A stretch of 64,000 bases of DNA from Lineus longissimus (Eukaryota; Nemertea; Pilidiophora; Heteronemertea; Lineidae). Below the pieces are notes generated by a model. The model was not told the DNA's origin. It saw only the letters and a list, made by a program, of their open reading frames with translations, and searched no databases. This document shows positions 20,313 to 57,631 of the stretch, one piece after another. Each line of letters opens with the position of its first letter. Positions within the stretch are counted from its first letter, which is position 1. The stretch lies in the NCBI RefSeq assembly GCF_910592395.1, contig NC_088315.1, positions 684,501 to 748,500 of the forward strand. Reading direction: 5' to 3'. The position numbers and the translations under genes were made by a program.

Positions 20313-20329
20313 TGCAACATTACTGCGAT

Positions 20330-23300
20330 ATGGCGCCGTCCAGAATAACCACATTCCTTCCCATCTTCATTTTCTTCTGCTTACACATCCAACAATCATC
20401 ACAACAAGCATGCTGGGAAGACATACCAATCAAAACAGAGAACAAGGAGAATTGTAAAGAATGTCCCGGGGAATCTGATAAAGCCGGGGCGCTACTCATG
20501 GAGCGGGTTGAGAAGCTGTCACAGGTCAAGTTCGACTTGAACTGCATGGTGGCTGACACAGCGGGCTGGGCTGGTACAGTTCAGACGCACCCTTGGTTGT
20601 GCAAGGTCCCGGCTAAAGACTGCACGGAGCGGTTAGGAGCGTACAACTGGACGAGCCTTGCCGACAAGGCCGCCAAGGAGGCTTTGATAACAAGGGTAGA
20701 TGGCGACTTCAAGCTGATAGAAGCGGAGGTTTTGCGGCTGAAATCCTGTGCGCCAAAGAAGTTATGCCCAAGCTGGAAGTCGTCCAAGTCCCTTGTCGAT
20801 TCGAGAAAAGAAGCCCAGAAGATGGCAAGCGCCTTAAACTGCGCGACCGACACGGCAGGTGGCGGGATAGACGTCAAAGGTTATAAATTCAAGCTTCCAG
20901 TCGGCGTACCGTTCGTTCTGACCTCGTGCACTAAAGTAGTCAACCTATACAGTGGGACCAATATCAGAACAGAAGCATTCGTGAATGAGACCAGCGCAAA
21001 GCTAAATAAGTTGTTAAAAGAATTGTACAAGTCATCCTTTTGTAATTCCAATTATCTTTGTCCCTGCGGAGATGTTCAGTTGAGCGCAAAAATAACAAGT
21101 CTTGTAAAATCTGTAAAGTGCACCAACGCTTCGGTCGTGATTGCCAGTGTGACAACACTGCTGGCAGAGTTGGACAAGCTGCTGAAAGATTCGAAATTCT
21201 CCTACACTGAGGCATGTGCAGCTAACGAGAAACCGTCGGATAAACCTGATGATGTAAGAACTGCAATCATACAGGTAACAGAGGCCTTGCGTAGTATGAA
21301 GATTGCGAAGGAGCTCTGCCCTTGTCTGGCGAAGAGACAAGACGGCAAGGACAAGACCAGGCAAATAATTGAGGCCTGGGCCCAAGATGCAACATGCGCA
21401 AATAAGGCCCTCACGGATAAGACAGCAGCTAAAACTTCCATGGATGCCATCAAGAAAGTGACAGATGCATTAGAGATAACAACAGATGCATCTAAATGTA
21501 CTGCAGGGACCTTAACGGATGCTCAAAGGAAGTCGAAGATACAGACACTGGCTGGGAGAATCACACAATTCAGCCAGAAACTTGATCTTCTCGGCAAATG
21601 TCCCTGTTCTGATGAACATCCCGAAATTGACAAGAACGCCATAAAAAGTGCCAAATTCGAAGCGGACTGTTGGTTTAAGAAGATCAAACCTCCATCGAAT
21701 AATTTAGATGCTGAAAAGACGAAAATAGATGAGCTCATAAAGAAACTTAGGAAGGATTGGCATATTGAGGAGAATGGAAAGAATGACAAGGACATGGATA
21801 ACCAGAGTGAATGTAGAAAGAGCAAGGAGACTGTTGATGATGCTGCCGCGCTAAAGAAGTTGACTGAGATATACACGGATTTAGAGGAACTGTCCAAGCA
21901 AGCTAAAATGCTGCATGATTGTCCTTGTAAGGTTTGGGCCACAGAGGATACGGTTTGGCTATTTGGGAAGATTGAGAGTCTGGCTAAGGATGCCACTTGT
22001 AACAACAAGGACCTAACTAACAAGACCTCCGCAAAAGCTAACCTGGACGCCATCAAGAAGATCACCGATGAACTTTTCATGACTGTGACTGAAGCTGGCT
22101 GCCCTGCACCGTCAGGAGATGATGCATCTCGATTGAGCAACATTCAAAAACTCGCAGCAAGAATCCCAACACACAATGCCCAGTATCTGGCTACCTGGAA
22201 CTGCCCATGCGGAAAGCTCGGGGTTAGTTGCCCATGTAAAGTAAGCTTGGTAAAGTCTGCGATTGAAAAGTATAGAGAGGTCGAGGAGCTGTCTAATGAA
22301 GCTTATTGTGTGGACCCTAATATGGACACTTCAGCCGATGCTACCGTTAAAACAGCTTGGGCAAATATCGTTCCGATATATGGAACATACTATTTGAAAA
22401 TCAGTAAAATGTGCGGTACTCCCGATGCTGCCGCTGCGGCCGCCACGCCTGCGGATAAGGTCAAAGCCATAACAGCCATTGAAAATCAACTGAAGGATCT
22501 ACGGCCAACGATTAAGACCTACGAAGATGCTATAGTTGCTGCAGATCCACTGGGACTGCTTTTTGAGAAAGTCTACAAGAGAAGTCAAATGAAAGGAGAG
22601 CTAAACTGCATAGCAGCGGAGTTGAAAAAGTTAACGCAAGGATGGACGGGTACGGTTACAAACTTTCCTTGGTTGTGCTCGACTCAGACATCAGATTGTA
22701 CTGTTGCATTGGCGAAGAATAAATGGTCAACGTTAGCCAACGCAACGAAACCGACGGTCCTTACTAAGTTAGACGGAGAGTACAAAACCTTAATCAATGA
22801 AATTGTCTTGCAAACCAGCTGTCTAGGGTATTATGCCTGCTCATCTGGCAAGGCTCAACTCGAGACAAGGACCACCGCCCAGATGCAAGCAGATGCTACA
22901 AAAATGGCCAGTGCGCTGAAGTGTGCAACTGATACAGCAAACGGCGGTATCACAGTCGCCGGCTACACATTCAGTCAACCCGTCGCAGTACCAGCGCTCA
23001 AGTCTTGCGCCGATGCCACGAACGACTACAATGGAACTGATATAAAGACACAGACATTCGTTCAAGACACTGACGCCAAGTTACAGACTCTTCTAAAGGA
23101 TTTCTATGACGTTTCCTTCTGTCGAAAGGAAGGGTTATGTCAATGTGGTAACGAAGAAATGACGGTAAATATCGACAACTTGGTGAAGTCAGTGAAGTGT
23201 ACTGATGCAACAAAAGAGAACCCAGGAGCAGTGAAACGAATGGAAGCTCTGGACATTGCCCTGCACAGTTATGACTATAAGTACACTCAAACATGCACAG

Positions 23301-26300
23301 GAGGGAAAAAGCCTTCAGACAAACCAAACAAAATAAACTTTGTTATAGAAAGGTTACCTAAAATGATCCCGATCTGGAGGTTTCTGGGGCAGCAATGCCC
23401 ATGTCAAGAGGAGAAAGTCAATGCCCGATCAGGAACTGAGAAGGTGATTAAGATCCTTGCACAGGAAGTTACGTGCCTCAACAAAGCCCTCACAGTCAAG
23501 ACAGGGGCACAAACAAAAATGGCTGAGGTTAAAAAGGTCACAGATGCACTGAAACAGACGATTACGGAGACGCCATGCACTGCTACGATTGCAGGAACTG
23601 ATGCCGAAAAGACTGCCACGATAACGACACTTGCTGATAGGATAACAGCTCTGTTCAGTGGGTGCAACAACATGGATATTTGTCCCTGTAGTGTTGAATT
23701 AGAGTTTGCTGCAATAAAGAACTTTGCGAAAACGCAACTCAGAAAAACAAACTGTGCAGAACAAAATTTAGCAAAGCCCGCCGAGGCAACTGAATTTAAG
23801 ACAGCAAAGGGTAAAATAGATGCCTTGGCTAAGCAGTATTGCGGGGAAGCTGAAAGCTCGCAGACGTGTGACAAAGTTACCACCACTGATGCAGCTCTAA
23901 CTACCGAAGTTAAACGAATTGCTACCGATTTGGAAGCACTTGTCAAAAATGCGGCAGTGTTAAAGGAATGTCCTTGTAAATCGTCTAAGGAAATGAAGGA
24001 TATCAAAGTCTATAATCGGATCCAATCTCTCGCTCAGGATGCGGTGTGTATCAATAAGGACCTGACAGAGAAAGCACCAGCAAACACTAAAATAGTTGCG
24101 ATAAAGGCAGTGACAGATGCACTTCTGATGACAGTGACAGAGACGGGGTGTACGGCATCAACTGGCACTGCTGCTGAAAAACTAGCGAAGATTACAAACA
24201 TAGCAAGTAGAGTGTCTCTGAATAACAATGTGTTGGACTGGGTACGGAAATGTCCATGTAAGCCATCTGACAAGACGGAGCTGAAACTATGTAGGGATAA
24301 GAACTCTGTAATTATAGAGCTTCTGGATGAATTGGAACATTTAAAGAAGATCTTGGAGAAGGCAAATTGCATAGTACCCGACTGGGCTACTGCAGACGCA
24401 ACTGTAAAAGCAATTACAGACTTCACAACTTGCGCTGACAAGTATGTTATCCAAGCTGGGAACACTTGTCCGCCTGGCTTTACTCCACCGACGGTTGCCG
24501 CTGAGCAAGTCAAAGCCTTAACATTACTCCAGGTCAAACTCAAAGACGTGGAAGGTGAAATTGAGTTTTATGAAGAGAGCTTCTTGGCCAAAGATTGCAG
24601 CGTCAGTCAGTTCTACCAGAAGTACAACCGACAGATACAGTTGAAAACTGCAATGAACTGTGTGGTGCTCGAGCTTAAGAAGTTGAACCCTCCCTGGGGT
24701 GGAGCCATCAGCTCCAATAACTGGCTATGCGAGAAGGCGGCAAAGGATTGTCCCGAATGGTTGGCGAAATACCAGTTTGCTACCAAGGATAATGCGGCAA
24801 AGACTGCAGTCTTGACAACACTGGAAACTGAATATAACAAAATAGAAAAGCAAATGGAATTATTAGATGAATCTACCAAGAAGAGGAGATGCATGCGTGG
24901 AACCCAATTCCTCGTGTCCAACACAGCAGGAGAACTCTATAATGAATTACAGAAGATGCAGAGTGCCTTGAAATGTGCCACGGACGCTGCAAACGGCGGA
25001 GTAACTGTTGTTGGGTACACTTGGGCGGAGATTCAGGCCATTCCGTTCCTCATCACACCCTGCAGTAAGGTCACGACTGCATATACAGGCACCAACATTA
25101 CAACAGATGCATTTGTGAAGGACACTAATACGAAATTACAGGCAGCTTTAAAAACATACTTGGAGGTGTATGCCTGTCGTCTTGAAGGTGCTTGTTCCTG
25201 TGGAAATGACGCGATGCAGGCCAAACTGACTGGTATCACCAGGGCCGTAAAGTGTACTGGCGCGAATACTACAAATGCAGTGGCGATGGCAGGCCTGAAG
25301 TCATTTGATAAATTACTGAAATGCAACTCGTTTCCCTACGAGGTGAAATGTGCCAAGGATGAAAAGCCTTCCATTGTAGTGGAAGACGTAGACAATGCAA
25401 TAGAGTCAGCTGAACATATTCTGCCAAAATGGGGATTTTTCAATGATTTCTGCCCTTGTAAGAGTGAGGGGAAAGAAAGCATGGACCAACTCACGAGAAT
25501 TATAGAATCGGAGGCAAAGGCCGCAACATGCTACAACAAAGAATTGACAAACAAAGCAACTGCTCAACCAAAGATGACGGAAATCAAGACGGTCACCGAC
25601 GCCCTTGGTCTGACCATTACTGAAACTGGGTGTACTGCAAGCACATTAACTGATGCCAAGCGACTGGAGGCTATAACTAAACTTGCTGCAAGTGTCACAC
25701 AATGGGACAGCCGGATGGCAACTGTTAAAACCTGTCCATGCGAGGAGCTGGCAGGTACTACGATGAAAGAGGTTAAAGATGTTTTGTCTCGATTCAAGAA
25801 AACGGCGGATTGCAGACAAGCTGATCTCAATACGGCCTCTGACGCTGGTTTCAAGGTGCAAAAAGACAAGATTGATGCGTTGGCTAAGAAGTATGAGATT
25901 GATGCTGCTGATAAACCAGATTGTGTCTCAGATACTACATCAACCGATGCACAACTTACCACAACAGTAACTGATCTATTTGCCAATATGGAGAAACTGA
26001 CAGCCATCTTGGACCAGGGGCAGACATGTCCTTGCAAGCTAAAGGCAGCAAACCGCGATCTCAAGCTGTATTCCCTGATAGAGGCACAAGCAAACCTGGC
26101 AGCATGCAATTATCAGAATTTGACAAACAAAGCCCCAGTTCATGCCAAGATGGGAGAAATTACGGCTATAACCGAGGCCCTGTTTATGAAAATAACTGCG
26201 ACTAATTGCGCGAATGCCACTGGGGATGATTCATCTGTCGCAGCGATTAAAGAAGCAGCAGAACGGGTTACAATCCATAATACCCAATTCCAGAATGGGC

Positions 26301-26936
26301 GTAGCTGCCCCTGCCCTGTCGAAGACAAGAATGAGTGTCCCTGCAAACTTGAAAAGGTCAACTCTGCCATGGACGGCTACAAGAGCATAGGCGAACTTGT
26401 GAAGAAGGCAAAGTGCATTGAGCGCAGTGCTACGAATATTACCGACAATGACCTAGCAACCGCTGTAGGGGAGGTTGACCAATACTCCGAAAGATACGGG
26501 GTCAAGGCCAGTGAGAAGTGTAGTTCAACAAGCACTGCTGATGCTGAGGCGAATACCGAAGAGATCAATAAGATCGGGGCAGAACTGAAGCAGCTAGTTC
26601 ATAAGATCGAGCAACTGGAAGATTGTCCCTGCCCGGATGAATCTGTCATCCTGAAGACCGCATCAGAGAAGAAGTTATCCGAATATTTCTACGGAGTTAA
26701 ATGCATTGGGGAGAAGTACAAAACTGATGCCAGCGTCAGCGCTGCTGTTGAGGAAATTGACACTATCATCGCTGCTCAGTTGGTTGCGTACAAGACTGAC
26801 TGTGCCGGCTTTACGCTCCCACCAACGGCACTGGATGCGGCCAACGCTACCAATCTGATCGGAGAACAGGAGACACTCATTGAAAGTGAAATTGGAAAAC
26901 TCGACAAGATTGACAAATGCCGAGGACTCCCCGACG
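20330..26936 (+). CDS. Gene 3 exon 1: signal peptide and three CPC blocks (residues 1-2202)
   Basis: A 6.6-kb uninterrupted exon ending in a phase-1 donor (GAC G|GTAAGT). After the signal peptide come three homologous blocks: residues 55-742 (from 20492), 743-1425 (from 22556) and 1426-2202 (from 24605). Each opens with an LNC/MNC...WLC segment and has an ALxCATDxAxGGxxVxGY signature. Each block divides into about seven subrepeats of 85-110 residues. A subrepeat is a Lys/Ala/Leu-rich, probably helical stretch with single cysteines and ends in CPC. There are 16 CPC triplets plus CQC and CSC variants. One recurring subrepeat reads AxxATCxNKxLTxKTxAxxxM, then IKxVTDAL. The last block carries an extra subrepeat. 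I recognise no known domain; a disulfide-stapled helical repeat is inferred. Confidence 0.9.
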
Positions 26937-29900
26937 GTAAGTTAATTGGGTTAGGTCGGTAGACTTCACGGGAGCAGAACCGTGAAGGGCTCATCACAGC
27001 GATCAAACGATATCTTACTAGTTAACCATTCAAAAGCTGTAAGCTGAAACCGTGTTCAAGTACTGTCAAGACAGATGTGACGATTACCTGCGGAGTCGGG
27101 CAAGTTGTCTGACTGCTTTGAGGGCCACGGATCATGAAATAAAAGAACAATTTGAAATATGAGCCTAATGGAGTAACCTTCTTCAATCGTCATCCATTTC
27201 AACGTGAGTTTGCATTGAAAGTTGCCCTTAGTCTCCGCAGTGTTTGGTCGGCTTTGCCTATGTGTCAAGGTAAGGTTCACTAACCGGAGATTCACAACTT
27301 ATTGCAGCATGCCGTGCTGGCTTACGACCTCTCAAGGTCGAGCTCAACTCCACCAGACCAATGGATATTGTGTCGCCAGGGTGGTCCGATGACAAGGAGG
27401 GAAAGCTCTGCAGTGTCAGGTGTTTATGGAACATCATTTGGTCAAAGCAACTGGTAAGTTGATAATTGCGTTGAACTCGAAAATACCGATTTCTTGAATA
27501 ACACTGCCCAAAGAGAATAATTGGCCACGCCCTCGCATTCGTGTTCCATGAGTATCATGCATGTATATTGCCTCGCGTGACCTCTAGCAAATACTGTTGG
27601 TTGTAAAACACAAAGTAGGTCAAACTATGAGAATACGCGCGTATAGAGCTTTATTTAAACAGGCATCGACGAGTCCATTTATCCGATCTGTCGCATTGTG
27701 TACGTAGAAGTAGTGTCGAGAGATGAGGAACGATTTTTCATTAGGAGGCGGCAGAAATACGAATGTAGACTGCAGACTCTGCCAATATGACACTGCCAGT
27801 ACGTGTACCTTTCAAGGTTCCAGAAAAGTAACCAAAGTTTTGGGCAGGAAATACAGTATATATCATATTCTAACACCTTCCTTTCTCGGGCAACTAGGAA
27901 GTCACCTACGCAGCTGAGGCTATTGATATAAAAGCCAATGCGGACAAGACGTGTGGTGATAACAAGCTGTGTCTTAAGGTGGGCGGGGAAAACAAGACGG
28001 ACCACTGTACTGGGCAGGATGTGCTGCCAAAGCTTGCCACTGAGGAACCCCTATTGGTCAGCTACATAAACAAGGGCGCCAAGGACTGCGGAAAGGGATT
28101 CAAGATGTCACTAAAACCTTCTTACGCCGGTAAGCATTCTGGAGAGAACACCATTCTGTTGAACAATTGATGATTTTGATGATGTTGTTCGAAATTATCT
28201 TAATCATCTTGGAATTATCTTTGTCATCCATATAAATAAGGCTTGACAGACTACTTTGGCATTATCCTGAATTGAGATGGACTGGGCTCAAATTGGCCTT
28301 TTGATGATTCCCCTGCCACTGAGTATTAAGATGTCAGTACCATTCTCGTCAACACCCAACTTCTGTCGTAATTTGAAAGTCATCTTAAGATTGACCGGTC
28401 ACCAACTTGACACAAGGCTTCGAGATCGTAAATCCCCGCATGTTAGGTGACAATTTCCTCTTTAGGATGTGGCAAGAAATCGAGCGTGTACGAAGTCCAG
28501 AAACCAGATAACATTGAAATCAGCTCACCAAATGATGACGGCAAATACCCAGACAACCTAGACTGTAAATACGAAGTCAGATATGATCCACAGTTTTATG
28601 TGAGTATTTCTAGCGTTATTATTCTGGTTGGTAGAAGGGCTGGCAGGCATTTCGACGGGATAGTGACAACGATCAAAGCTGTTATTCAATTTGAAGAAAC
28701 TTCATCCAATTCTCTCATGTTGTCTACTTTGATACCTCTGTCTGAACTTTGAAACCTCTGTCAGTACTTCGAGACTCCTAGGTATCTCCCTGAATGTTTG
28801 GACCTTATCCCAACTTTGAGACTCTCATTTCTCATCTTTAAGATTCTGTATCAGCTCTGCTGTCCCTATCTCAACCTAGAATCTACTCCAAAATTAGGAC
28901 CTTAGAAGGTACCAAGGTCGACGTCTCTCTTACTTATTTCATTCCAGAAGTGTTCATATAGCATAGGTTCCGTGGACATCAACAGTACCGACTCCAAAAT
29001 CTGCGCTGAAGATGTCCTCAATGTGACCGACAGTGGCAACACTACTGCCATCTGCGGGACAAACGCGGTCCCTGAAACTCCGGCCAAGGGTGGGAAAGTG
29101 ATGCTTAACTTTGTGTCAGATGCCGAAGGATCAGGAACCGGATTTACAGCTCTGTTTACTTGTAAATTGAAATATCCTAAAGGTATGAGACGTCATCGCT
29201 TCCCAAGGTTGAGCTTTTGTTAAACGCTGCTCAATTCAGGTCGACCAGCTTCCCAGCGACCAGGACACCACGGCCTCTGATGATGCAAGCCGGTACTGAT
29301 TGGCTGAAAATTTTTCCAGTATCAAAGTACCGACATGGCTTATCATACTTTTTGTTCACAGACTCCTAGATTTCCATAGCAAGCTAGCTAACTAGAACAC
29401 AAGGTGTGACGTGACAATAGTGGATGCACGTACATGACATACAACAATCTGTTTTCCTTTCCCAAGATACAAGGAGACTCAGAATAATGGAACAGTCTGT
29501 ACACATCGAAATTGATTGGCAGAGGGTTGCATCAACTGCACAGCCACCTTGATGCTGGCCACAAGCTTATGTTCACAAGTTCATTTCGTTCTTTCAGCAT
29601 GTGATCCTAACGTCACTGAACCAGAGGTGATCAACATCACGAGTGCGACCATCATAACGGATGTGAGGTCTTTCAACCCGATCGAGGGCAAGTACATGAA
29701 GAATGCCATGTGTCGGTGGAAGGTCTGTTGGGATCCGAGGAAATTTGTGAGTACATGTATTTCGAACCAACGTACCAATATCCTTCAGGGATTTCGTACC
29801 AACTCACAAATCAATACCCTGTCAAGGCGCTCTGTTAAATATTTTCCTTTGTTCTTGTTTTGCACTCCCACTTTTCATTCTAGCGAATTATAACTTCTCA

Positions 29901-32900
29901 ATTTTAAGAACATAAATCATTTACAGAAAGTCGAATACAAAACCGTTGGCGATTTCGACATCAAGACTAACAATTCCTGCCAGCAAGATAGGCTTGTAAT
30001 CTCCAACGAAACAGACTCAAGCAATGTGTCCGCCTGCACGACCAGCGCGATTGATACAACGCAAGTGCAAGTGGAGGCGAATTCGACCGAAGCCTGTCTC
30101 TCCGTTAACTTTACTGCGAATGGTGATGCCGAGGTCGGGGGAGGGTTCCAGGTGTTGATCACTTCAGCATATGACGTGCCTCTGCGTAAGTTGATAAAGT
30201 ATTTCTTAATCCAAATACAGAAATTTGCAGCACTGATAGTGTTGTAAGATTTAAGTCATCGTTGTGTTCGTCTCCGTCTTCGACTCTTCGATGGAACCAA
30301 AGATCCAGTTCGGCGAATCACTGAATACGTTAAGAAAGTCTGAAGAATTAGAAGTATGCTAGTATGTGAGCATCCGATTCCCCGCGAAAGAGATAAGATC
30401 TTTAACCTATCTTCACTTGCAATATGGTTTCCGTTGAAGAGTTACTTGTAACACGTACCATTTCTCTTTAGATTGCGATTCTGGGAAAGCCGGCAAACAA
30501 CCACCAGTAGCAGTCGCCAACACTGAGCCGATCTACCTTTCGACTTGGGGATATGAACATGGATTCAACTATCTTGCGAATCAAACCTGTATTTGGCCAC
30601 AATTCACTTGGGATCAGCAACGATGTGTAAGACAGTGTCTTTGTAACTCTCATCCTCCTTGTTGTTTATCCACATCCGTAGATGCATCCTGTTTCAGGTT
30701 CCGCAAACCTTTCAAAGGTTTCGGCCCACACCTTTTAACCATGGGCCAACCAGGCCGATGAAAGAAATAAAAAACATAACGGCCAAGTTAGAAAACTCAA
30801 ACGTCCGACCACCAAACGACCAACTGCACTTGAAACATGATAGACACCAGCAACTGGTCTCACTTGGCTGTAAATACAACAAGTTCATTGGCGAGACAGG
30901 TCACAGAGACGCTCTGGTGTAAAGAAAAAAAAAAGAAAAATATTCCTCGAGCGGGTTCGAACTCGGAACTCTCGCCACTTGATCCTTCCCGTCTCACTCA
31001 CTATGCCATGAAGCCGTTGTTGTAAATGACATATTTTTCAGTTTTTGATTTCACGCACAAGCTTGACAGAATGGCGCCTTTTTCTGCACCATTTTCAGTT
31101 TCAAAGTGGCCTTTAAAATTTGCCTTCTTACTATATCGGCAAAGTGAATTCATAAGACACACAATCAGGAGATGAACATGCCACCCTCTGATGATGATAG
31201 AAGCACGCAGCTATTTTTCGAGTTTTGAAGATGCAAAACAATTTCCGACTTTGCTAGTATTAAAACCATGCGTGTATTGAAGAACTGTCTGATGAGGTGG
31301 CATTCGATTTCTAACACTGGGCGTAGTGGCCACGTAGAGTAAGATATGTAAACTGATGCTTATATCAGTGCTCTGCTGGTGAATATGGTAGCGCCACCCC
31401 GACCTGCTGTTGGTCTATCATATTTGAAAGCCTTTGAAACATGGCTGACCGGTCGTTGAAAACATGGCGGACGGTCGGTAGTGTTTTCTAACTTGGCCGT
31501 TAGGGTTTTTATGTATGTATGTCAGCTTTAAGTGTATTCATCGATACCAATGGCTTTCAAATCATCAAGAAAAGTTTACAATAGGAAAGATGTTTCTCAC
31601 AAGTCTATCTCCTATCTCTACAGACACTAGGTTACGAGACAGTTGGAGTTATGTCCATCTATCAAACGGTGAACGACACGACATGCGAAACAGATTATAT
31701 TGAGGTGACCACAGGAGCCGGGAATACCACAAAGTATTGTGGTGGCGACGCCATCCCCCTGACTAATGTGACAGACAGTAACTCCCTCTCGGTGAAGTTT
31801 GTAACGGATAGCGCGACGAACACGACTGGAAAAGGCTGCAAGATAAAGGTGCAGTGTCAGAAACGGGAATTGTCGAAAGGTATGATTGATGTTTCAAATC
31901 AATGCCAATTGACTCTATCTTTTATCAATGTTCCTGCGGCTATGTAAGACTAGTGGTGTGAAAAAATGCACGGAACAATCCGAATGTTTGACAGAGTTGT
32001 TGTCCCCTTCTAGGTTGTTTCTATCCTGATGAAGACGAAGACGTCGCTGAATACGAGTTGACGGAGCCAAGCAACGGCATATCCCTTACGTCCGTTGACC
32101 GCCCCAAGAACCTCAAATACATCCCGGGCTACAAATGCTCCTGGAAGGTCAAGTACGATAATGAAAAGCTGGTAAGTCATCACTGATGGTGAAATTGTGA
32201 AGTTGAAACAATTTGGTCGAGAAGTTGTAAGCTGGCGATGGTGTATGTTGAAGGTTGACGTGTATGTAAGATTGGAAAGACGTTCATTACCAAACGATAT
32301 GACTGTTTGGTTTTGCCCCTGTAGACATTTTTCCGTTTCTAATGATGGTACTTATAAATCGATGAGGTTTCAAAATACAGTTCTAATCGCCGTTCATAAC
32401 TCTATCTCCCTGTTCATCTTACTCGTGGCTGGCGGCGTAGAGTTGGTCAAAGTGAGCAGTATGCTTTCTTTGTACTTTTCCGTGGAGGAATGACTAACTA
32501 TGAGACATCATAACATCAACCCACGTTATTCGATACCAGTTGTTGAAAAACCTGAATTTTCCCTTTAGGACCTTCTCGTCTCCACCAAGGGAAAATTCGA
32601 CCTAAAGACCGGAGCAGATTGCACCAAGGACACACTGACGATAAAGGAGGGAGCTAACGGGACGGATGAATGTGTCAAGGGGCCTATTTCTACCAGGAGG
32701 CTCGTCAAGGAGAATGAAACGGAGGTCAATCACACGTCTAACAATGATAATGAAGTTGGTGAAGGATTCGAGTTGGTGTTCTTGCCAGTTCCTAAAGGTA
32801 CATGAAGTGCATAATGGTGATCCGTTACTGCCTTGGCAAAGCAGCTTGCCAGTTTGAACAGTGAGTCCGGGTAGTCGTAATTAAATAATCCAAAGACCAG

Positions 32901-35900
32901 CAATGACTTTATATATCTAGACACTTTGAAATACCTTTGATTTCAGGTTGTGGTGGTAAACCCGTGAAAAAGGAGCTTCAAACGGATGAGAACCTCTCCT
33001 TCTATGGACAGATAGAGAATCGTACCGTAAACTATGCTCCTGATCTGAACTGTAACTGGGAGTATGAATGGGACAAAGATCTGTTTGTAAGTGTGTCCAG
33101 TCTCGAGTTTTAGTTTCTTACAAAGTTAAAGGAGGCCTTATATTCCAGCGGTCATCAAATACAATATTGGGAGTAACCCAAGTGCTTTTTAGAACTGTAC
33201 CGTACCGTACCGTACACTTTTTTAGTAGCCTTGGAGGTAAGGTTGGATCTGAAGTAAGTTTGGACCCTACAGCTATTCCGAAATTACATTGAATACGAGG
33301 CCAAAGAGTAAGATTTCCGGGCAGTCTAACAAACACCTAGTCATAGCTCGAGTTATCAAACCATATCATAAAGTGAAACCTGCACGCTAATATCACTCAA
33401 ACACCCAAACAGTAAAATCGAGGTAAAAGTTTGCTATACCACGGGAAAGGAGCATACACACGAAAACTGAATCAAGTTACAATTCTCATGCGCGGTAAGA
33501 AGCACCTGAGGTTGTTCTCCTTTTCAGGATGTGTCATACAAGATTGAGAATGTGAACATCAAGGGAACACCAGCCAAGACTTGTGACAAAGGAGATAAAC
33601 TCGTCCTAGATGATGGGAAAGTCACCAACAACGTCTGTGGCACCGCCAATGTGACCTTGACACCTGTTCAGACTGGTAAACTAAAGATACAGTTCACGTC
33701 CGATCCTGATGCGCAAACTGGCTCAGGATTCAATCTGATCCTGGTTGTCACTTTCAAAGGTAAAGATCAGAGTCTACAGCAACATATCGTCTTCATGTGT
33801 TCAAGGATTAGATTTTATTCAGAATTAAGTGAGAATATCCCAGTGAACTAGGATATTGATAAACGTGCCATCCTAGTCGGCAACCGGTATTCTTATACTA
33901 AGTACATGCATGTTGTATTTTACAGCTTGTGTTGCGGGCGCCAAAACTCCTATCAAGCTTGACAAACCTGATAAGCACGAGATCGACTTCTATGGCGAGG
34001 GCTACCCAGAGTCTCTGAGCTGTGAATGGAACTACCAGTGGGACACGGCGATCTATGTGAGTATCAAATATGTCAGAGAAGGCGAAACGGTAACTGGAAG
34101 TAATGGGATGTAGCAGGAAACGTTGTTCCTATAAACTATCGTTCTTCCCTATGGTGAATCCCTTCTACGGCAGTTTGAGACAATCTGCAGTTGCAGTCAG
34201 TCCTTCATTATTGTGTGTTGCCACTGGTCTTATCATGACTTGAAAAGTAGTCACGATGCACGTAATTGGTCCAACAGAGGCCTGGCTGAGGTCGGAAAGG
34301 CTTTCCAAAAGATAAAACAACGAACAACAAAATCATGGAGCGTTTTACTAACTGTGTGATCAAGTTTCTTGCTTTTATCTCCTCCAGGATGTGCAGTTCT
34401 GTTTCCCAAAGATCGAAGTTACAGGGAGTATGCCAGCTTGTGCCCAAGACAAGATTGATACCATGGACGGCCAGACCAAGAAAGCGTTATGCGGGGCGGC
34501 TGCTGTTAGCTGTATTACAGCCGACTCCGGGAACCTTACAATTGGATTCATTTCTGATGCCATAAAGGCTGCTGACGGCAAAGGATTTGAGATGGTCATT
34601 AAGGTCTCGTATCAAGGTTAGTGAATGAGAAAATGCTGATGGCAAAGGATATAAAAAGGATGGTAGTGTGACCGTCAATATAATGTATGGTTCTTCCTTT
34701 ATCGCAGGTAGTCTTAACATATTCGTTTAGTGAAGCATCAGAAGGCATTACCAGCAGAAAAGAACGACTCCAGCTCTCGCATCTTTTTAGTCAAACCCCG
34801 ATGGGATTCTACTAAGTAATTTAACAGAACAAGCCCACCTTACTTCGGCACAGGTGTCGTTTGCAGGCAGAAACGAGTTGGCTACTGTCACACATATCAA
34901 ACGTACATACCTTAGAGTTGAATAGACACTTGCCTACTTGACACAGATCGGGGAGCATCAAAATACGATCCTGTTGTATGTTTGCAGCCTGCACGAATGC
35001 GAAGAAGGAAATCGTCACAGAATTAACGAAGCCTGGCACTCACGTCCTTAAGTTCTACAATCCTGAGAAATACCACAAAGATCTCAATTGCACTTATACA
35101 TTTAAATGGAATTTACAGTCCTTGGTAAGTTTTTACCATATTACCTCAAGTCTAAATTCATGCCATGGGACAAGTCTCATCGTAAAGATGCTACAATGAA
35201 ATGCTTCTTTACCTGCTTTGGCCTAGCCAAGGTATCCCTGGATCGCCACTCAACGCTAGGCACATCCCAGATTTGATAACTACAACTAATGGGGCACATA
35301 ATCATGCACCGTCAGCATAACAAATGATGTCTCAAGAGCATCTACAGACTTACTCTAGAATGAAGACGTTTATGTAGATGTTCTTCCCTGAACACAGTGT
35401 CTCAACTTTCTTTCATATGTGCAACCATCCATTTTCAGACGGTCAAGCAAAAGCTTCTAAACATGGATATTGACGCCTCGACAAAGAACTGTAGCAACGC
35501 GAGCACTGATGATTACCTTGAGAGGTCTGATGGCAAGAATGCGATCAGGGTGTGTGGAAATGCTACAGACCTACTAAAGAAACCATTGGAGTTGAAGACA
35601 GGATTCGCTAGCTACAATTTCATTTCGAACGCCGACGGCAATAACGGGAGAGGCTTTATCGTCGAGTTTGAAATCACTAAACGGGTTTTGCCAAAAGGTT
35701 GGTATGTCTGCGAGATCTTACAGTGGTTACAACTACCAGTGCTTTCTTAGTGAGGTGGACAATTGCTGGACATCGAGGTGAGATCTTGGGGGTTTAGTTA
35801 CGAATGCGATGCTGTACATGACTGTTTATGGTAGGTTTAAAGTGTGGTGCGATATGCATACGCAATCTGTTGATGAACGCATATTGTTAAACCTAAAAAC

Positions 35901-38900
35901 ATACAAGTACCTTTTTGAATTACTTAGACGACAGACCCATCACTATGCTTTCGTTTCGCCAGAAACCATTAGTGTCAACCAGCTAACAGCAGATACCATT
36001 CTTTGTAAATGTTTTTCAGCGTGCCGGGATGGTGATAGTATGACCATAAAGCTTCCAGGGAACACCACGTTAGAGTCTCTTGACAGAGATCAGAACTTGC
36101 CTTACCTCAGCGATCTGAATTGTTCGACAACGCTAAAACACGATCCCAAGAGATTGGTAAGACATTCAATGTTTGTGAGGCACTGCGGAGCTGGAAGCAA
36201 AATGACCATGTATGAAATTTTGTATGTTGCGTGGACCATTAGAGTTTGGCTTTGGTGGATGGGTGTTGGAACGAGTTTAGAATCCCCGATCACACCCCAA
36301 AAAAAGGTCATCGGTTGACTTACCAAGCACCACTGTTCAATGGATTTATAGTTGAATGCGATCAAACTACGTCATTTCCGATCGGGGATTCTAATGTTTA
36401 GCCTGGGTGTTTAACAGACAGTTCTCTAGGATGTCATTACATTCAATGCGTGCATTTTGAAACTGCCGCTTCCCTCATCTAATGAAACGCCATTGTTTTC
36501 AGCGCCTTTCCCTGACAACCGTTGGAGCCGTGGATATAAACAGCCCGAATGCAAAGTGTGAAAATGACTCCTTGGTCATCCAAGATGGCGAGAAAGGAAA
36601 TACGACCAAACACTGCCAGAACACGAAGATAGAGACACCGATTGAGCTGGAATCCGGGCATACTGTGATCTCTTTCCATTCCGATGGAGCGAACGAGGGC
36701 AAGGGGTATAGTGTCGTTGTAGCGGCTGAGCTACCCGAAGGTTAGTCGCATGTGTTAGGACTGATCATGTCAGCTCTCAAAGTAGAACGGAACATATGTC
36801 GGTATGGTAGATTACTTGAACAATCACCGGAAAGAGCATACCGCGAGGTCTCACAATTGATATCAAAATTTAAAAAATAATTCACGGTTAAAATTGAAAT
36901 TTTTTACAGAATGTGATGGAGGAACAACTATAGAAATCACAAATATGACGCCACCAACACTTATCTCTTCGTGGGCACCTGCGGATGCTGAGAACTACAT
37001 TGGCGGTCTACACTGTACCTGGACTGTCACTTGGAATAAACAGAAATTTGTAAGTAGCCTTATGAGTTCTCGTCTTCTCATTGAGCTTCCTTCGACATCA
37101 GGAATGGACGCGCGATTAACAAGCCTTCGGGTTGATCAGAAATCTATGGTTGTGTCTGTAAAAAGCTTTTTTGGCTCATGAAATCTGATGAAGGAGAACA
37201 GGGCCGGGGTAGAAGTTGGATATGTCCATGGATCAAGGGGACACTTCCTTCTTCTACAGCACTTCTAAGCCACCACGTTATTGTCTCTATTTCTAGGACA
37301 TGAAAGTGAAATCGTTGGTAATGGACATAGAACAATCGGCAGGGTGTGCCAATGACTATCTCGAGACTCATGCCGGTGGCGCTGCCGCGGTGAAGACGTG
37401 CGGAAACTCCGCCATTGCAGAAACCACCATAGATAGCAAAGTTGATAACTACACTGTATCGTTTGTCTCTGATGGAGACCAGAACTCCAAGACAACTGGT
37501 ATGGGATTCAAACTTCAGTTTACACCAACTCTAAGGAAGTTACCTGAAGGTATGTGTCATTTCACCAGTGGACGTATAGCTTGCATTTGCCTCCGTAAAT
37601 AACCTAAATGCAAACACAAAGAGTACACTTGTACAGGGTCATAGTGATAGCCAAGGATACGACCAGGGAGTTTTGGGCATTTAAAATGTGTTTTGTGCAT
37701 TACTGGTGCATTCCGGGAGAGCCACTATCGATCTCTAACGTACAGGAGCTGCTATCTTTCACATCAGGAGGGACAACTGTTATTTCCCTGTCGCTTTTCT
37801 TTGCTAACAGCTCGATTGATGGATTGCTTAGGTTAATGTTTGTAGCGGGACTACGTTGGAAGTGCGGTAGGAAATACTATAGGATATATACAATTTTGTA
37901 GGATGTTCGTGGGGTAAAGAGTGCACCAATCCAAAGAAGATAACCATCCCCGATGTGAACAAGAACTACACCATTACATCCCCAGACCGTGCGGATGGGT
38001 TAGACTATTCACCTGGTCTTTGCTGCCAATATGAGTTCAGCTGGGCGAGCGACAAAATGGTAACCGTTATCTTTGGACTTTATGTTGATGACTCTAGTGT
38101 GGCCGTGGCTAGAATCTTACTCAACATAATCACCACATAACTTTGTAATGTCCGCAGCCATCGGTCATACAAGGTGTTGGGCAATTCAGAAGCTACTCCC
38201 TTCTTTAAGACAAACGAGCCGGTCCGAATGATTTCGTTTGAATTACTCTACTTTACTTCACTACACTAGCATGTCCACATGATCTTGTTCAACTGTACAC
38301 GAGATCAGCGTAAAAGTTAGAAAGGCAAGAAGCACTGGACATCGCTTTTCAACCCTATCGTCTTCTATTCAGGATGTTGTCTATGGCTTCCTGGGCTTTT
38401 TCGAAACTGAAGGCAATGGCACAGATTGCGAGAGGGATTATGTGGCGGTCACAGATGGTGCCAGCGAAAAAGTCGAGACGTGTGGGATGAAGCAATATCC
38501 AGCATCACTGACCAATCGAAGCCAACAACAGGCCAAGTCTAATAAACTTGTGCTCAAGTTTAAATCGGACAATAATAATACGAGTGTTTTCAAAGGCTTT
38601 GAGGCGATGGTGAAATCTGTCGACTTGGAAGGTATGTAGCATCATCAACGAGTCCGCAAACGTCCGATTCAAAAGCAGGAACTCTAATAATCCGTTAGTC
38701 CAAAGCTGCTGTTGTGTCAGACTTAGAAATGTACATGTATACTTTTAGTCCATAAGGTACCGCCGTGTATATCCAGGACAAAATGGCAACATGGTTTCAA
38801 ATGATATCCGTTCTGAACAAAGCATTATCTCCTCATTAGCCTTACCATCAGCAGATGAGGAGTCACACTGGTGAAAACAAAAAAAAAGACAATAATATGC

Positions 38901-41900
38901 GCGACAGCCATAAAAGGCACTAGTTCCTCTTTTGATTTTTGACATTTTCTCGCAGCATGTTCGTCGACCAAGCCTAAGAAGATAGTTCTGAAGGAAGGTG
39001 ATGCTGCAGACATTATGACGCCAGGTTTTGCGTCCTCAGGAGCGTATGGGAATAACAAGAATTGCTCGTGGGAATTCGAATTACCGGCGGGTCTGGTAAG
39101 TTGACCTAGTACAGCGACAATTAAGAACAGGGTGTTTGTTACCTGCGTCAAACCATTGCTTCAGGAAATCTCATTTAACAGTATTGGGCGATCTACGCAG
39201 TATTGTTAGTGGAAATCGGAAACACCGGAGGAGAGATACTTCGACAGACTGAGTTATTCTCACCACCATGTGAGGACAACCGCGGTGACAGGCGAAGTGA
39301 AGCTGCTCCGTAAACCAACACCCACACTACCTCGTTAGGAAATGCATTGGACGATTGGTTGAGTGCGCTAAAACATTTCAGATTTACAACAGAACCCAAA
39401 ATTTAGGCTTATCTGCATCCAAATCTCATTCCAGGCATTTGAGGGACAATTTGCAAGCTTTGACCTTGAAGCCAGTACGGGATGTACGAAGGATTACTTC
39501 CAACTCGAGCAGGAAGGGAACCTGATGGGCCGCGTTTGTGGCACATACAATTATAATGTAGCACCACCTAAGAAAGGGAACAGCGGAAAAGGGAAAGGTA
39601 GAAGAAGGCGACATACGTTCAGGTAGGATAATACACCAATATATTCTGTACGATATGTTTCACAAGTACCTGCAGTGAGTTGAGTTACTTGTCAAAGAGA
39701 CTGAAGGGCCATTTCTTCTGGGGCAGTATTTATTAAGCATATAGGCACATTTCGAGTTTCCCCAATAAAACACTTACCACCAGTGGATGGAGGATTTCAT
39801 GTTTTTCACATGTTTGCTCGTACGGATTTGCTTCCACACAAGTATCTTCACCATACCAATCTTTGCCCCTTATCTCCTTTTAGCAGGTGGAGTCGTGCAG
39901 CTATTGCGGCGGCTGCCTACGGTCATCCTTACAACTACCCAACTGTGGCTGGTGGCAAAGTGACACTGATCTTTGTGTCAGATGCGCAAACTGTGGGGAA
40001 AGGAGCCCACTTCAAGGTGAAGCTGGTCAAGCCAAAGGGACGTAAGTTGAAAAAAAAGAATTTAAAAGAATTGGCGTTGTACAGCAAAAGTGAAGGTTTG
40101 TCCAGTGATTGGAGGAAATACGATAAAACGTCGAACGTTTTTGAGTTTCATGTTCTTGCACTTTTAGCTTTTCTGTTTAATCTACCTCTGAAGGTGTAGC
40201 GAATATTGAGTCCCATGCAATAGTCGTCCAGGAAGGAAGATTCCATAAACGATTTCAATGTCAGATTACCAAAGAATGCCTTGCATGTTCAAACAAAGGG
40301 CAGGAGGATTTTCTGGAAGAGAGTATAAATATTTACTATGACACTCCTGTTATGCTTCCAGCAATCGATGGCGCTGTGAAGAGAATCACCATGGATGCAA
40401 AGAACAAACAAGTCACCATAACAACCCCTGGATATAAAAACAAGATACCAGTTCATCCCAATGCGAAGGCAGAATGGGCGATCCAGTTTAACAAAGAGAA
40501 ATACGTAAGTGTTAGTAAGCGACATACATTGTACAATCATTTGAAGGAAATGGTTTGTTCCAAGATAAACATAACGCAGAAGGTCACGCGATCTGATGTT
40601 TGCACCATAAAACACTTGATCTCTCCACAATTAGACAGACTTTCAGCAACTAGACTGATTCTGGTGTACGCCTCGATTGAAATATCTGTTTCTTGTATTC
40701 AGAGCATTGCCTGCGGCTTCCTCGGTCAATTCGAAATAAGTGCCGACACCAATACAGCATGCCCGAGAGACAAACTCGTCTTGCAAGATGTAAATGGCAC
40801 GGCTGAAACCTTCTGCGTTAATAAGACATATGGGACGGACTTGAAGGCTCTAGACCTGCCCATCAAGGCTGAGACTGAGCTTTCGGTGAACATGACCACG
40901 GACAAAGCGACTGGGAGAGGTTTCTCACTAGTCTGTCAGCTATTTGGGGCTATTCCACCAGGTACGATGTTGCTTACTTATCAAAACGACTTGTCTTCTA
41001 TTATTGTTTAATTGTGCATATAATGGTGGCATGTTATCTTGACCATCACGGCAGTGTAGTCCGCCTAGTATATTTGCAGACCTGATGCGTCAATTAATCG
41101 AATATAAACTTATTGGCTGAATTTCATCATGCCGGATGTCGTTTATTGCTGATTCAGTAAAATAAGCCGAAATAAATTATTACCAATTTTCTTTACAGCT
41201 TGCAAAGGCAATGGACCACAAACAGTCGAAGTCACCAACAACGGTAACATGAGGATCCAAAGCCCCGGATATGACGATAAGTTGCCGTACCCAAATGGTC
41301 TGAACTGCTCTTGGAATATCATGTGTCCAAATAAAGTACGTTCGAATTCAAGTTACACTTTGTTTGGAAACTTTAGTAAATAAATCGTGTTTTCAATGCA
41401 TCTCGTTTCTATTCAGAGAGTGGTAATGTATGGTGATGGTGAACTCGACCTCGAAGGTACGGCAGCCGCTTGCGATAAGGACACTGTCACCATCCTTGAG
41501 GAGAAGCGAGGAACTGACAAAGACCAAGCACTCACCATCTGCGGCAAGAAACAGTACGCCAAGGGAAAGAAGGATAAGTTATTCGTGGCTAGGTACAATG
41601 GTAACGTTTCGGTTAGCTTCGTTACAAGTAATAAGACGAACGGACTCGGATTTTCCTTGCTGTTGAATTGTGATCCATGCAGCGCAGATTGTATGGGTGT
41701 TTGTGATGGGAAGGCGAGATTATTATGTTCTCAGTACTGTATTGGTAAGTCTATTTTATTTACAGGTGAGGCAATCTTCGTCAGAAACAAGCTAAATACT
41801 TTAGAATCCACAGGACACTCGGGACTGGTGAAGTTTGAGTATAGTTGCAAATTTCTTCATGAGACTGTACCGATATTCTTATGAAACTCTTGATGTCACA

Positions 41901-44900
41901 AGAAGGCTTAAAATCCGACCGTTTTTTCTTACATTGTTTCATTTATCGAACGCCATCTACATGATATTTCATTGGGAAGTGTTCTGCGGGATGAGGATAA
42001 TGAAAGCATAGTCTTGTTTCAGATGGCCTAACTGGCAAGAATGAGACAATGACAGAATTCGAAAATGTCACAGACTGCGGCAAACGATGCATCGTCAACA
42101 ACACCAAAATTAACGAATTAGACTCCTGCAATCGATGCATGCTTGCCGCAAAGAAATCTACGTGGGGACCTCTGGGAAGTTCATATATGGACTGCGCGAA
42201 TACGTGCCATTCGCCATTTGGTGAGTTATTCTTCTTACTGATATTCTATTGCTACTGTGATGGCATAAGAATGACCGAGAGTAATCTGGCTAACTGTGCG
42301 AGCCAAAAGAGAGCACCCGGTTGCTGGACCAACGACTACCCAACGCTTTAGCAAAGATGGTTTACTATTTATCGTCGGTGACAATACGGGTCGAGTTTAT
42401 CTTGATAAAAAATTGTCCTTTATAAGAAATTGGTGTTATTTACATTATTTTCAAAAGGGTGTAAATCAGTAAAACACATTTTGGTTATAACCTGTAACCA
42501 TGGTATTATTTTGCCTTATTCAGCCATGAAGAAAAATGGGGCAGATATTGCCAAGAATACCACTGAAACATGCGATCAATGCATATATGGAACAACCAAT
42601 AAGACACTGTCGGATGTCAAGGACGTGTGTGGTGTTTGTGGTGGAAAGGGGGACACTTGCTTGGACTGCAATCAGAAACCAAACGGGTAAGATTTTACAA
42701 TGACGATTTCATCACTTCCTGCCAACTATTTAAATATGCTCTGGGTGACTAAGAATAACAACAATAACTGAGATACATTTGGACTATCATTCTTTCGATT
42801 GGTTAACAACATTATTAAGACGTTTGTAGGTGGCAATATTCTCTACGCTTCCTTGATTACTAACCCAAGAAGCTATGAGGCTAATGTACCGCATGATTGT
42901 TGACCCTTTCGTACACACATTCAACATCTTAATACGTGCATATATCAAAACCTGAATACGATGGCTTTTTTGAAATATCAACTAATTTCTGTTATTTTTA
43001 AGTGGTGCTACAAAAGAGCAAATACTACCGAAATCTGAAACATAGCAGTTTTTGTATAGAGCTTCCTTTCTGTCAACTTTCAGCGGTGCGGTAATAGACG
43101 CGTGTGGCAAGTGCGGGGGTGACGGAACAACCTGCCAAAACGTCCCAAGCAAAGTGATACCCGATATCATACCTTCTGTTACAGACCTGGTGCGTAGTGG
43201 ACCTAATTGTTCCTTATTGTCTTTGCCTTTACATTGTGGACACAGAGCTATACGGCGGCCAAGGTATCACTGTGCATGTAGATTCTTTTGCCCAACAAAG
43301 GCGTGACATACTCGCGGCAAAAAGAAGAGTGTAAAAGTTCAGCAGTTACAATCCGCCATAGCTCTGTCGTTTGTTCCAGCATCTCAACGAACAAGTCCCC
43401 ACTTTTTAGGTGGGACTTGTCTCATTGTCTGTTCGCCTTGTTTATCAAGGTGGCCGAAATGAGTTGTTTGACAAGAGTAATCAGATCCATGAAGTATTTA
43501 CTTACCAATATCAGAAATTTACACAAAATCTCACCGGGAGATTTTCTTTTTTCACAATAGTTTTTGAATGATAATTTCAGACCATTCGAGTTGAAGGTGC
43601 TGGGTTCGTAGTTGGTAAGGTGAATGAAGTGGTCTTCCAGGACGCGACTGGTAAAGAGGTGTTAAAAGTCAGCGCTGTTATAGAAAATAACCAAAATCTA
43701 ACGACAGCTACGTTTCAACTTCCCGCAGGTAAGTGTAGGAGCTATAGTCATCCAGCAAAACGTAAGGAAGATGCCTCAGTTCAGGTTACATAAAAGAGTT
43801 GTTGGGTAAAAACGCATTTGACTAAGTTCATATCCCTCCAAAAAAATATGTTAGAAATGTCCAACACTTTTGTATACAGTGATATTTAAACCATGGTGCT
43901 CACGTTTGAAATAAGATCCAAAACACTATGCATTCTCTATCTTTTTGAGAAAACAAAGCACAAGGCCAATTGTCGTCACTCAAACTTTGAAGGTGGGAGA
44001 GGTGTCTTTTAAAATCAAAATTTAAATCTAATGCATTATTCTTATTCAATTGCAGGTGCCTATCAGGTGTTTACCAAAACGGCAAGCGGGACTCTTTCAA
44101 AAAAAAGTTTGGCACTCACGGTGTTTGACAGTACTAGTAAGTTGACGAACATGCTATTGGTTACAGCTTGTCTTATTTCATTTTTTTCACTTTATTTCAG
44201 CTGTTCAAGTAGTTGTTACCAATATCTCTCTCTAAATCTCTTCAAGCTTCTTTCTGTCGTCGGAGGGTTGTTCATTTCGGAAACTGTTGTCACCCTGTGT
44301 ATCCACACATTGAGAGAAATATGGCACCAACCCTGATCAGATGGGAACAACTTTCATATACATGTATTTCAAACGGAAGACCATGAGGCCTCGTTCATCT
44401 TGGCCCAGATTCACCATTCAGGAGAAAATTTAATTCTAAGAGCGGATTGTCTCTCGCATATGATAACGAGAATTACAGTGTGCTGATAATGATGTCAGCA
44501 TCTACCCAACGCTCAACATGAGTAGGTATATACTGCTTGTAACAGCCTGGCTTGGTAAAGCCTTTCACGCGATCTTGATTTTCAAAACTCATGTGTTTTT
44601 TTTCTTGCAGAAATCAAGGTTATCGACCTCACACCAAAGGAAGCTTTAATTAGTACGGTGAAGACGAAGTATACCTTTACTTTTACGACTGAAAATGTGG
44701 AGGACACGAAGAAGATCGTATGCGTTTTTATAGGTATACTGTATAGATTGGGCGCTTTCATTCATAAAATTTCATGCTTTCAATGCCAACATTCACAAAT
44801 TTAGTCGATATTGATGCAGGATCGTGACTTGGAGGTGATGCATTCTGCCAGGAAGTTCGCAAGAAGAAGTTCTTGAATCGAGCGTTGGACACCCTGTCTT

Positions 44901-47900: not shown

Positions 47901-50900
47901 ATGATGCAGTAAATCGCAGTGGTGGGATAGTACCTGAATGACATAGTGTACCGATAAGCTAAACTAGCCTAGACGTTATCTCTTATAGATAATCCCATAA
48001 AACTTTTAATTTTCAGACTAACAACTCGGCTTGGGCCTGAACTTTAAAATAAAAAATCAAAGTTTATCATGTTCTATTAGTCGCGACGGTTTATAAGATG
48101 GTTCTCCTTCTTCACTTTTTCTTATGCCTCTTGTAATTTTAATGTTGCAGTTTTTCGGTTTGTGCTGAAGCAGAGCTTCCCGGGGGGAATTGCAAGACAA
48201 ACGGAGCAGTCAACTTTGTCTGGAGCTTCCCCGGTATGGACCCGAAGCAGGCCAACGCAAGGTGTTATCTATTCAGAAAATACACACTTAATGGTAAGTT
48301 ATTCATGTTCCCTACGCCGTCTCTACAGAAACCCGGGATCATTTTCATGCAACGTAGAATCATCGAATACATTTCTCAAAATATGCATTCCTCGAAAATA
48401 GAAGTAGCGTCAACCGTGTTCTAGAACATACATCGTACATAAGCCCCATTATTTTGGGAAACTACCCTTCTGATGAGCTTCGTTAACAATAATATGGTCA
48501 CAGTGATTATAAGCAAACAGAAGATACCTCATGTTATGTTGTTTTTTAATTCCTTCCAACCATTTTCAGTCGGCACTGTCCAACTTAGTGTTACTCTGTC
48601 AATCGGAAACTCAGGAGCAACAGTCAGCAAAACATTAGATTTGAAAGTCCTTTCGAGACCTCTCATTGCCGTTATTTCAAGTAAGTAATTACCCTCTAAC
48701 GAAAAAAAACAAAAAAAACCGCAGCGCTGAATGAAACTTTCTTTGCTCTCCCTCATTGAACCTGGGGGCTATGGTGGTTGTACTATCAAAAGAAATAATT
48801 CTACATAAACGTGTATAGTTTTATCAAATTCTGATCCACACTATTTGTGGTACATGTATTACATGTACACCCTTCGATTTGGGGCGTTTTCAAAGTCCAC
48901 CCGCAATGTACATGTAGTTAACTCGAACACAACGACTGCATATATCAAGATTGTGAATTCAGATAACCTTCATCGCGTGTTTCAGATGCACCAGCAAAGC
49001 TAGGAAGCTCTTCCAAACCAGCTAATATATCCTGCATTCAGTCAATCGATCCGGATAGAGACGCATCGAAGAAAATCAGCTGCAAGTGGTTCTGTCAAAC
49101 AGCCGTATGTAGAGTTTGATCTGAACCTATTTGTGGCCTATTGATGAGTAACTTAACCCTGAATTTGACACTTTGAAAGGACATTACAGTTATGATTTTG
49201 ATTCTATAATCAGCGGTGATTGTAAGTAGGTATGTGGCCCAGGCCTATCCCAGATTGAACATGAAACGATTATTCTCCTAAAGCAATGGAATGTAGCGTT
49301 TTATAGGGGCAACTGAATGACTGGTGCGTTGTTTCATTTCAGGATGGTCCATGTATGACAATCAGCGACAAGCAAATTGACCCTTTCATCGGTAATGAGT
49401 ACACTGTGGACCCTACTATCCTCATCCCCAATACCGTGTACACATTCACCCTCAAGGTATCAAAGGGCACGAGGACAGCATCTGCCATCAAAGAGATCAA
49501 CGTTGTGGCTGGAGACCCTCCCTCTGTAAGACATTCAGCCTTTTCGGTTGTACTTCAACTGGAAAGGAATCAAGCGCGAGCAGTAAAATGAACCATATTT
49601 ACCAAAATTTACATCGGTGTTAAAAACTACATCCATAACAACTGATATTTTACTAACTCGAGTCAATCGTAATGACTGAGACAGTAACAAATACACCACT
49701 TGTACGAGGTGGCGTTGTCAGTTCTGGACACTTGGGTGAGCGAAAAGATAGACAGGATAGACAACCTGATAACAGGATTCAGAACCAGCAATAGCTAGCG
49801 TCTGGATTCGTCCAATATTGCTTATCAGGAATCGGGACCGGGACTTACCAAAACGGGATATCGGGAAAGTCTCCTCTTATCAACCTCTATGAAGTTTCCA
49901 CGCGTAAAGATACACTTACCAGTGTCACTCATGGAGATTCTCACTCGGCGCGTACGAGTAGAACTTAACATCGAACAATATCACAAACTTACCAATCGGG
50001 TAGGCCTACAGCTTACTGGTTTCGAGACCTTTATGAAATAACAAAAACATGCTTATTGTACAAAACGATTTTGTTTCAGGTTATTTTCATTCCCATCGAA
50101 GGCATGGCAGATTCGTCTGGACGACTGAACGTGCTTGCTTTCGTCGAGTCAGCTCAAGCAATCACCAGCGCCAAGTGGACAAGCCTCGACAGTGAGTATA
50201 TACGATGCCCTGACCGCCCCCATCAAATCTAAGGGGTGACAGTACTCGTAGCAGTGTTCTCAATTGACCCCTTTAAGTAGGGAAGGGATTGCCATATGTA
50301 ATTTGACCCCCTTTTCGGGGCCTGACGTTTGTCCTCGAGAAGAAATCCTATTAACACATTTTAGCAAAAGCAATGTATACTAAGTAAAGTGGTCACACAT
50401 TTAATGAAGAAGCACCCTTTTCTCAAATCACACGGGCATTGGCAGTAATATCCATTTGGAACATCTTGTAACTCAAGTCTTCATCTTTTTCATATGTTGT
50501 GCGTTTTTCCTCTTTAGAATCCTCAGATGGAAAAGACGTTTACGCCGTCACAGAGTTGGACACTAAATGGGAAAAGACGCATGTGATTGGCGGCACAAAG
50601 AAATCCACCTATAAGATGGTTTTACCGCCTGGTTAGTAGGACAATAACTATCGATTGAAACTTCTTCTGAAAGCGAGCAGTGTCTCTTCTAAAAATAGGT
50701 CTGCGAAAAACCCCGGTTGGCCCTAGTGACGCCATGAATTGGCGGCAACTTGCCAACTTGGCAACAACCAAACATTCGGGGTCTTACCCGAGTGGTAAGG
50801 TTGTACAGTACTAAATCACTCTACAAGAGGTTATATTCATTTATTTGTTTATGTTAAAAACAGCAGTTGCAGTAAGCAAACTTTCCATCATAACTATGAT

Positions 50901-57515: not shown

Positions 57516-57631
57516 ATCTGAAGAAGATTAAAAATCAATCAACAATATCATACATTCATACTAGAAGAGGTCAAACTAAGATTGTGTTTATTGCCCACTG
57601 TAGAATTGACGGTGGATAAAACGATTCTCAC

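Follow-up and report, generated by a model that had tools for sequence, protein, structure and literature searches.

A triplicated array of cysteine-rich, predicted helical units in a large exon of Lineus longissimus, probably the first exon of a CUB- and REJ-containing membrane protein

The best-known long rods made of helices are intracellular, and animal receptors commonly have extracellular stalks built as chains of beta domains. In spectrin, the repeated unit comprises about 106 residues and its third helix continues into the next unit. Extracellular rods of three-helix repeats are found in Ebh and other bacterial surface adhesins, where they are built without cysteine staples.

A spectrin-type three-helix rod has also been described in EzrA (PMC4243239). 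Among REJ-containing proteins, the ten sea urchin SpREJs of the REJ/PKD1 family are described as combining lectin, EGF, PKD, WSC and SUEL modules with 1-11 membrane segments, SpREJ1 and SpREJ2 having one or two (Gunaratne et al. 2007, PMC1934368). According to the same paper, a GPS precedes the first membrane helix in every one of them except SpREJ10, PLAT is present in five of the ten proteins and PKD repeats occur in SpREJ2-7 and 10; the term 'CUB' has no occurrence in its main text (PMC1934368). The domains reported for a coral skeletal REJ protein are WSC, PKD, REJ, GPS and PLAT; that skeleton also has CUB proteins, which are reported to be separate and to have no other known domain (PMC4890752).

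Here we describe a locus of the nemertean Lineus longissimus that lies in a window of 64 kb, by which we mean the whole stretch of DNA that was analysed. A single large exon encodes a triplicated array of repeats with a recurrent cysteine pattern, named CPC units after the Cys-Pro-Cys motif at most of their joints, and exons downstream of it encode CUB and REJ domains. The account that we favour, and whose chances we regard as evenly balanced, is that the array forms a spectrin-like rod outside the cell, stapled by disulfides and carried by a giant CUB/REJ receptor.

Three blocks and 22 units in one exon

The reading frame that holds the array is open from stop to stop over positions 20276-26962 of the forward strand, on which all features described below lie unless stated otherwise. 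Coding exon 1 occupies 20330..26936 (2202 codons plus one base) and contains a signal-peptide-like start followed by 22 CPC units in three blocks. It begins with an ATG at 20330 that precedes a hydrophobic stretch, and it ends at a GGTAAGT donor directly after 26936, in phase 1, which was scored as good in the exon model described below; the frame itself reaches a stop at 26960-26962, eight codons beyond the donor. The original prediction had set the start at 20492, a position that falls within block 1. Read from the sequence, 20330..20407 encodes a probable signal peptide with the hydrophobic run LPIFIFFCLHI. The remaining product, of about 2175 residues, is rich in Ala, Lys, Thr, Leu and Cys. 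There are 102 cysteines in the 2202 residues, the mature count being odd because one of them sits in the signal peptide, and 18 C-x-C sites (16 CPC, one CQC and one CSC). Among the other exons of the exon model the median length is 174 bases and the longest has 349, so that the 6.6-kb CPC exon stands out.

By BLAST between blocks and cutting into units, the array was divided into block 1 (20456..22534, residues 43-735) and block 2 (22535..24589, residues 736-1420), each with units u1-u7, and block 3 (24590..26935, residues 1421-2202), with units u1-u8. The three block pairs scored 393, 344 and 352 bits in BLAST (E 1e-109 or better), with 36.6, 33.8 and 34.9% identity over 697, 693 and 680 columns, whereas the best of 30 shuffled controls for each pair reached 29.3, 23.1 and 22.3 bits. 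These scores bear out the proposal of three homologous blocks in one exon; the seven or so subrepeats proposed for each block were found in blocks 1 and 2, and block 3 has eight.

A typical unit has about 94 residues and follows the pattern C-P-C-x23-C-x33-C-x33-(CPC), with variation: the units as cut here range from 86 to 113 residues, and spacing varies most among the first three units of each block. The two inner cysteines are kept in 22/22 units. The joints are less uniform, given that the leaving cysteine is missing from unit 7 of block 1 (B1u7) and from B3u1 and is displaced in B2u7, that B2u1 lacks the entering cysteine, and that several units have extra cysteines. Units u1 and u2 of every block stand apart from the others and share the motifs WLC and CATDxAxGG. 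Every block has an additional cysteine group where u6 meets u7, which makes this joint unlike the others; it reads CPC...CPC in blocks 1 and 3 (22202-22237 and 26306-26344) and CPC...C in block 2 (24251-24292).

The relationship among the units was assessed with leave-one-out profiles, in which each unit was scored against a profile of the other 21 together with 50 shuffles of the held-out unit, scrambled around its fixed cysteines. The real unit exceeded all of its shuffles in 22/22 cases. When the positional counterparts of the unit in the other two blocks were omitted as well, 19 of the 22 still beat all shuffles; B2u1, B2u2 and B3u2 did not, and B1u2 passed barely. In view of the misses of B2u2 and B3u2, the tie of the u2-type units to the remaining ones is weak and is not established from sequence alone.

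In a tree of the 22 units, u1 (98/96), u2 (92/88) and u5 (91/92) grouped by position across blocks and u4 joined u6 (96/98), while u3, u7 and u8 fell into no resolved group; the bootstrap had not converged. From these groupings, the array of units seems to predate the triplication of the blocks. It is at the third codon position that the blocks differ most often (0.67-0.69, with 0.47-0.48 at position 1 and 0.37-0.40 at position 2), as expected for a protein under selection, and many identical residues are differently coded (157/255, 129/230 and 138/235 in the three block pairs). These differences point to an old duplication maintained by selection on the protein; an old triplication had been suggested earlier from the low similarity between blocks.

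Relatives and predicted fold of the CPC unit

Searches for relatives covered sequence libraries, structures and prokaryote and viral contigs. Pfam returned four matches to the CPC exon product at E<=10, none of them credible; the best, DUF5033 (E 0.4, 11.1 bits vs a cut-off of 25), was rejected as a chance match. The sole NCBIfam match at E<=1, to the Npun_F5560 family, was likewise rejected, having E 0.0014 but 18.8 bits vs 125 over 65 residues only. The CPC protein gave no match to PDB by sequence at E<=1, and a profile from a 12-row unit alignment gave four at E<=10, the best at E 0.2 and none credible. At E<=10 Pfam listed no spectrin repeat, in a search whose HMMER filters drop most weak matches, and there is none among the fold matches listed, an absence that is compatible with a spectrin-like fold. 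Pattern searches produced 44 matches in prokaryote contigs and 126 in viral contigs, with none confirmed as a relative, and a search of the window outside 20300-27000 for further copies of the CPC block gave a best E of 0.70. The earlier statement that the block belongs to no recognised family thus stands within the Pfam, NCBIfam and PDB sequence searches, relative to which the CPC unit appears to be an unclassified cysteine-rich helical unit.

An AlphaFold model of two consecutive units, based on a 12-row alignment (10 unit pairs and two single units), had a mean pLDDT of 81.1 and a pTM of 0.64. Three helices per unit are predicted (3-30, 38-53 and 72-98, then 100-128, 134-149 and 166-191), with a one-residue break, across the CPC, between helix 3 and helix 1 of the next unit. 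A model of the whole of block 2, based on three rows, was poor (pLDDT 62.6, pTM 0.37), and in it the helix pattern of u1 and u2 deviates. Amphipathicity of the helices is weak, with p<0.05 for 6/22 first helices and 4/20 third helices, the latter count omitting B1u7 and B2u7 and including B3u1 as placed by hand. Modelling a block had been proposed as a check on the idea of short helical bundles stapled by disulfides. The interpretation in the original prediction is partly supported: three helices per unit are predicted, and the disulfides are deduced from the positions of the cysteines. In an up-down-up topology, the entering CPC cysteine and the loop cysteine would share one end of the bundle, and the cysteine at the end of helix 1 and the leaving CPC cysteine the other.

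Whether such bundles stack into a straight rod depends on the joints, and here the models can be read in two ways. The chain may be helical but compact, each block folding back into a globular ligand-binding domain of about 690 residues, three in all. We consider this somewhat unlikely, although several observations speak for it: the seven units recur blockwise, u1 and u2 are distinct in every block and carry WLC and CATDxAxGG, a hint that the block as a whole is one domain whose end is specialised, and the block-2 model interrupts the helix at four of its five C-x-C joints (CQC 201-203; CPC 287-289, 382-384 and 572-574). Against it, the fifth joint of that model lies within a single unbroken helix (451-507, continuous through the CPC at 478-480), and the break in the two-unit model is one residue long. 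Continuity of helix 3 with helix 1 of the next unit, on which the rod would depend, is therefore partly predicted by the two models.

Downstream exons and their joining to the CPC exon

Exons downstream were modelled with splice-site weights and codon usage, the beginning being forced at 26936 and the end at the stop at 55078-55080. As stricter settings skipped many CUB exons, looser ones were used, and these yielded 50 exons encoding 5292 residues. A CUB array, each CUB usually split over two exons, extends over 27308..41765; Pfam CUB matched 13 stretches of the modelled exons (E 9.9e-85, 280.6 bits vs a cut-off of 21.4). When exons were sorted by eye, 13/13 CUB first halves began in phase 1, a phase that the donor imposes on the first of them, and 14/14 second halves were in phase 0. 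An exon at 39887-40041, in phase 2, divides one second half, and a fourteenth first half, absent from the exon model, can be read by eye near 30470-30620. A bacterial toxin subunit match in the CUB part (E 0.16, 12.5 bits vs 27) was dismissed as chance.

The CUB array is followed by a short cysteine-rich stretch on two exons (42524..43189) with two CGxCGGxGxTC motifs, to which no Pfam match to the modelled protein gave a name. Further downstream, several exons at 49400..52038 (coordinates via the exon model) encode a partial REJ domain (PF02010, E 5.9e-19, 68.4 bits vs a cut-off of 25, profile positions 163-421 of 452). A GPS-like motif, ...C-K-S-S-H-L-S-V-F, lies at 54303..54398; its match to PF01825 is under the cut-off (E 0.07, 14.1 bits vs 22.5), and its H-L-S was recognised by eye upstream of the membrane helix. 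The last exon (54833..55080) encodes a single hydrophobic, putatively membrane-spanning segment (54847..54918, read from the sequence; TM_ErbB1 below cut-off, 16.3 bits vs 27.1), a cytoplasmic tail of about 53 residues and the stop TAA. Neither PLAT, after the membrane helix, nor PKD repeats were among the Pfam matches to the modelled protein at E<=1, and we therefore call it REJ-containing and not a PKD1 protein. The original prediction dealt with the CPC exon alone: its observation of the blocks was real, and it missed the downstream CUB, REJ, GPS-like and membrane exons.

By Pfam, then, the modelled protein is a CUB-domain and REJ-containing one, and we infer the splice that joins it to the CPC exon. 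The good phase-1 donor at 26936 matches the phase-1 start of the CUB first-half exons. In the first CUB exon, no in-frame ATG precedes the cysteine, and no ATG-started frame of at least 12 codons was found from 26963 to 27308; the exon thus needs an upstream 5' exon, the nearest candidate for which is the CPC exon. The CPC exon is probably exon 1 of a gene of about 50 exons reaching 55080.

The donor, its phase and the lack of a start in the first CUB exon also weigh against an unlikely alternative, in which the CPC exon forms a gene of its own or an isoform made by intronic polyadenylation and encodes a secreted structural protein of matrix, egg coat or mucus that ends at 26960. The signal-peptide-like start and the confinement of the array to one 6.6-kb exon would suit such a protein. 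So would the stop at 26960-26962, which is followed 176 bases later, in the first intron, by an AATAAA (27138-27143) that makes a secreted stand-alone form possible; the forward strand of the window has 31 AATAAA in all.

Other features lie elsewhere in the window. A second run of CUB-like exon halves at 59379-63900 possibly belongs to an adjacent multi-CUB gene that is truncated where the window ends; part of it, 62496-62702, resembles the CUB first halves of the receptor (tblastn E 4e-4 and 5e-4), and four single exons from the run had no Pfam match at E<=0.01. On the reverse strand, 56655-57527 is an uninterrupted frame of 291 residues with a methyltransferase domain (Methyltransf_25, E 4.6e-13). 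Gelsolin repeat pieces occur at 9560-10351, one frame being over the Pfam cut-off (E 1.7e-9) and one under (E 0.0024), and a SCAF11-like C-terminal domain at 1246-1419 (E 8.7e-7) is probably the end of a gene that starts before the window. Tandem repeats were found at 1156-1275 (44-base unit, 2.7 copies) and 19225-19390 (90-base unit, 1.8 copies). An Rfam scan of the window gave no match.

Proposed rod and comparison with known systems

In the stapled-rod account, the 6.6-kb exon would encode the membrane-distal end of a giant protein of the cell surface with a single membrane pass: a signal peptide and then 22 units, mostly three-helix up-down-up bundles of about 94 residues. One staple per unit would join the second cysteine of the entering CPC to the cysteine in the loop between helices 2 and 3, and another the cysteine ending helix 1 to the first cysteine of the leaving CPC. 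It is very improbable that the CPC sites bind metal or perform thiol exchange instead of forming static disulfides since, although they number 16 and C-x-C occurs in metal sites and in thiol-disulfide exchange, their regular spacing to two further cysteines in 22/22 units and the secretory start would fit structural disulfides better. With helix 3 passing via Cys-Pro-Cys to the next helix 1, the stapled units would stack end to end in the manner of a spectrin rod, very roughly 90 nm long at full extension. The rod may keep the tip of the receptor off the membrane, atop the CUB array, the REJ region and the GPS-like site, at which the ectodomain may be cut and tethered. Several observations speak against this account: the odd mature cysteine count, the missing, displaced or extra cysteines of some units, the helix breaks at four of the five C-x-C joints in the block-2 model, the deviating u1 and u2, the weak amphipathicity and the AATAAA at 27138. 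More tentatively, it is possible, if doubtful, that the array is a lineage-restricted extracellular counterpart of spectrin, hardened by two disulfides in each of its three-helix bundles and with Cys-Pro-Cys hinges between them; seated on a membrane protein with CUB, REJ and GPS, it would be able to transmit a pull to a cleavable site of GPS type.

Like the SpREJs, as far as these are described in the paper cited above, the Lineus protein has a REJ domain and a large ectodomain, its GPS being only GPS-like; unlike them, it has a CUB array and, if the splice is correct, a CPC array, and no PLAT was found after its membrane helix. The combination of a CPC array, CUB, REJ and one membrane helix was not met with in the parts of the literature that were searched. 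With spectrin and EzrA the CPC units would share tandem three-helix units, a helix 3 that runs into the next unit being partly predicted; they differ in being extracellular, in having usually four cysteines per unit and Cys-Pro-Cys at the joints, and in giving no Pfam spectrin match at E<=10. Ebh-type adhesins, likened here by general description, are also extracellular three-helix repeats, but are bacterial and unstapled. The CPC unit could be expressed and tested directly and, if the account is true, a REJ-containing receptor that carries a helical rod stapled by cysteines would have taken an unusual route to a long, stiff ectodomain.
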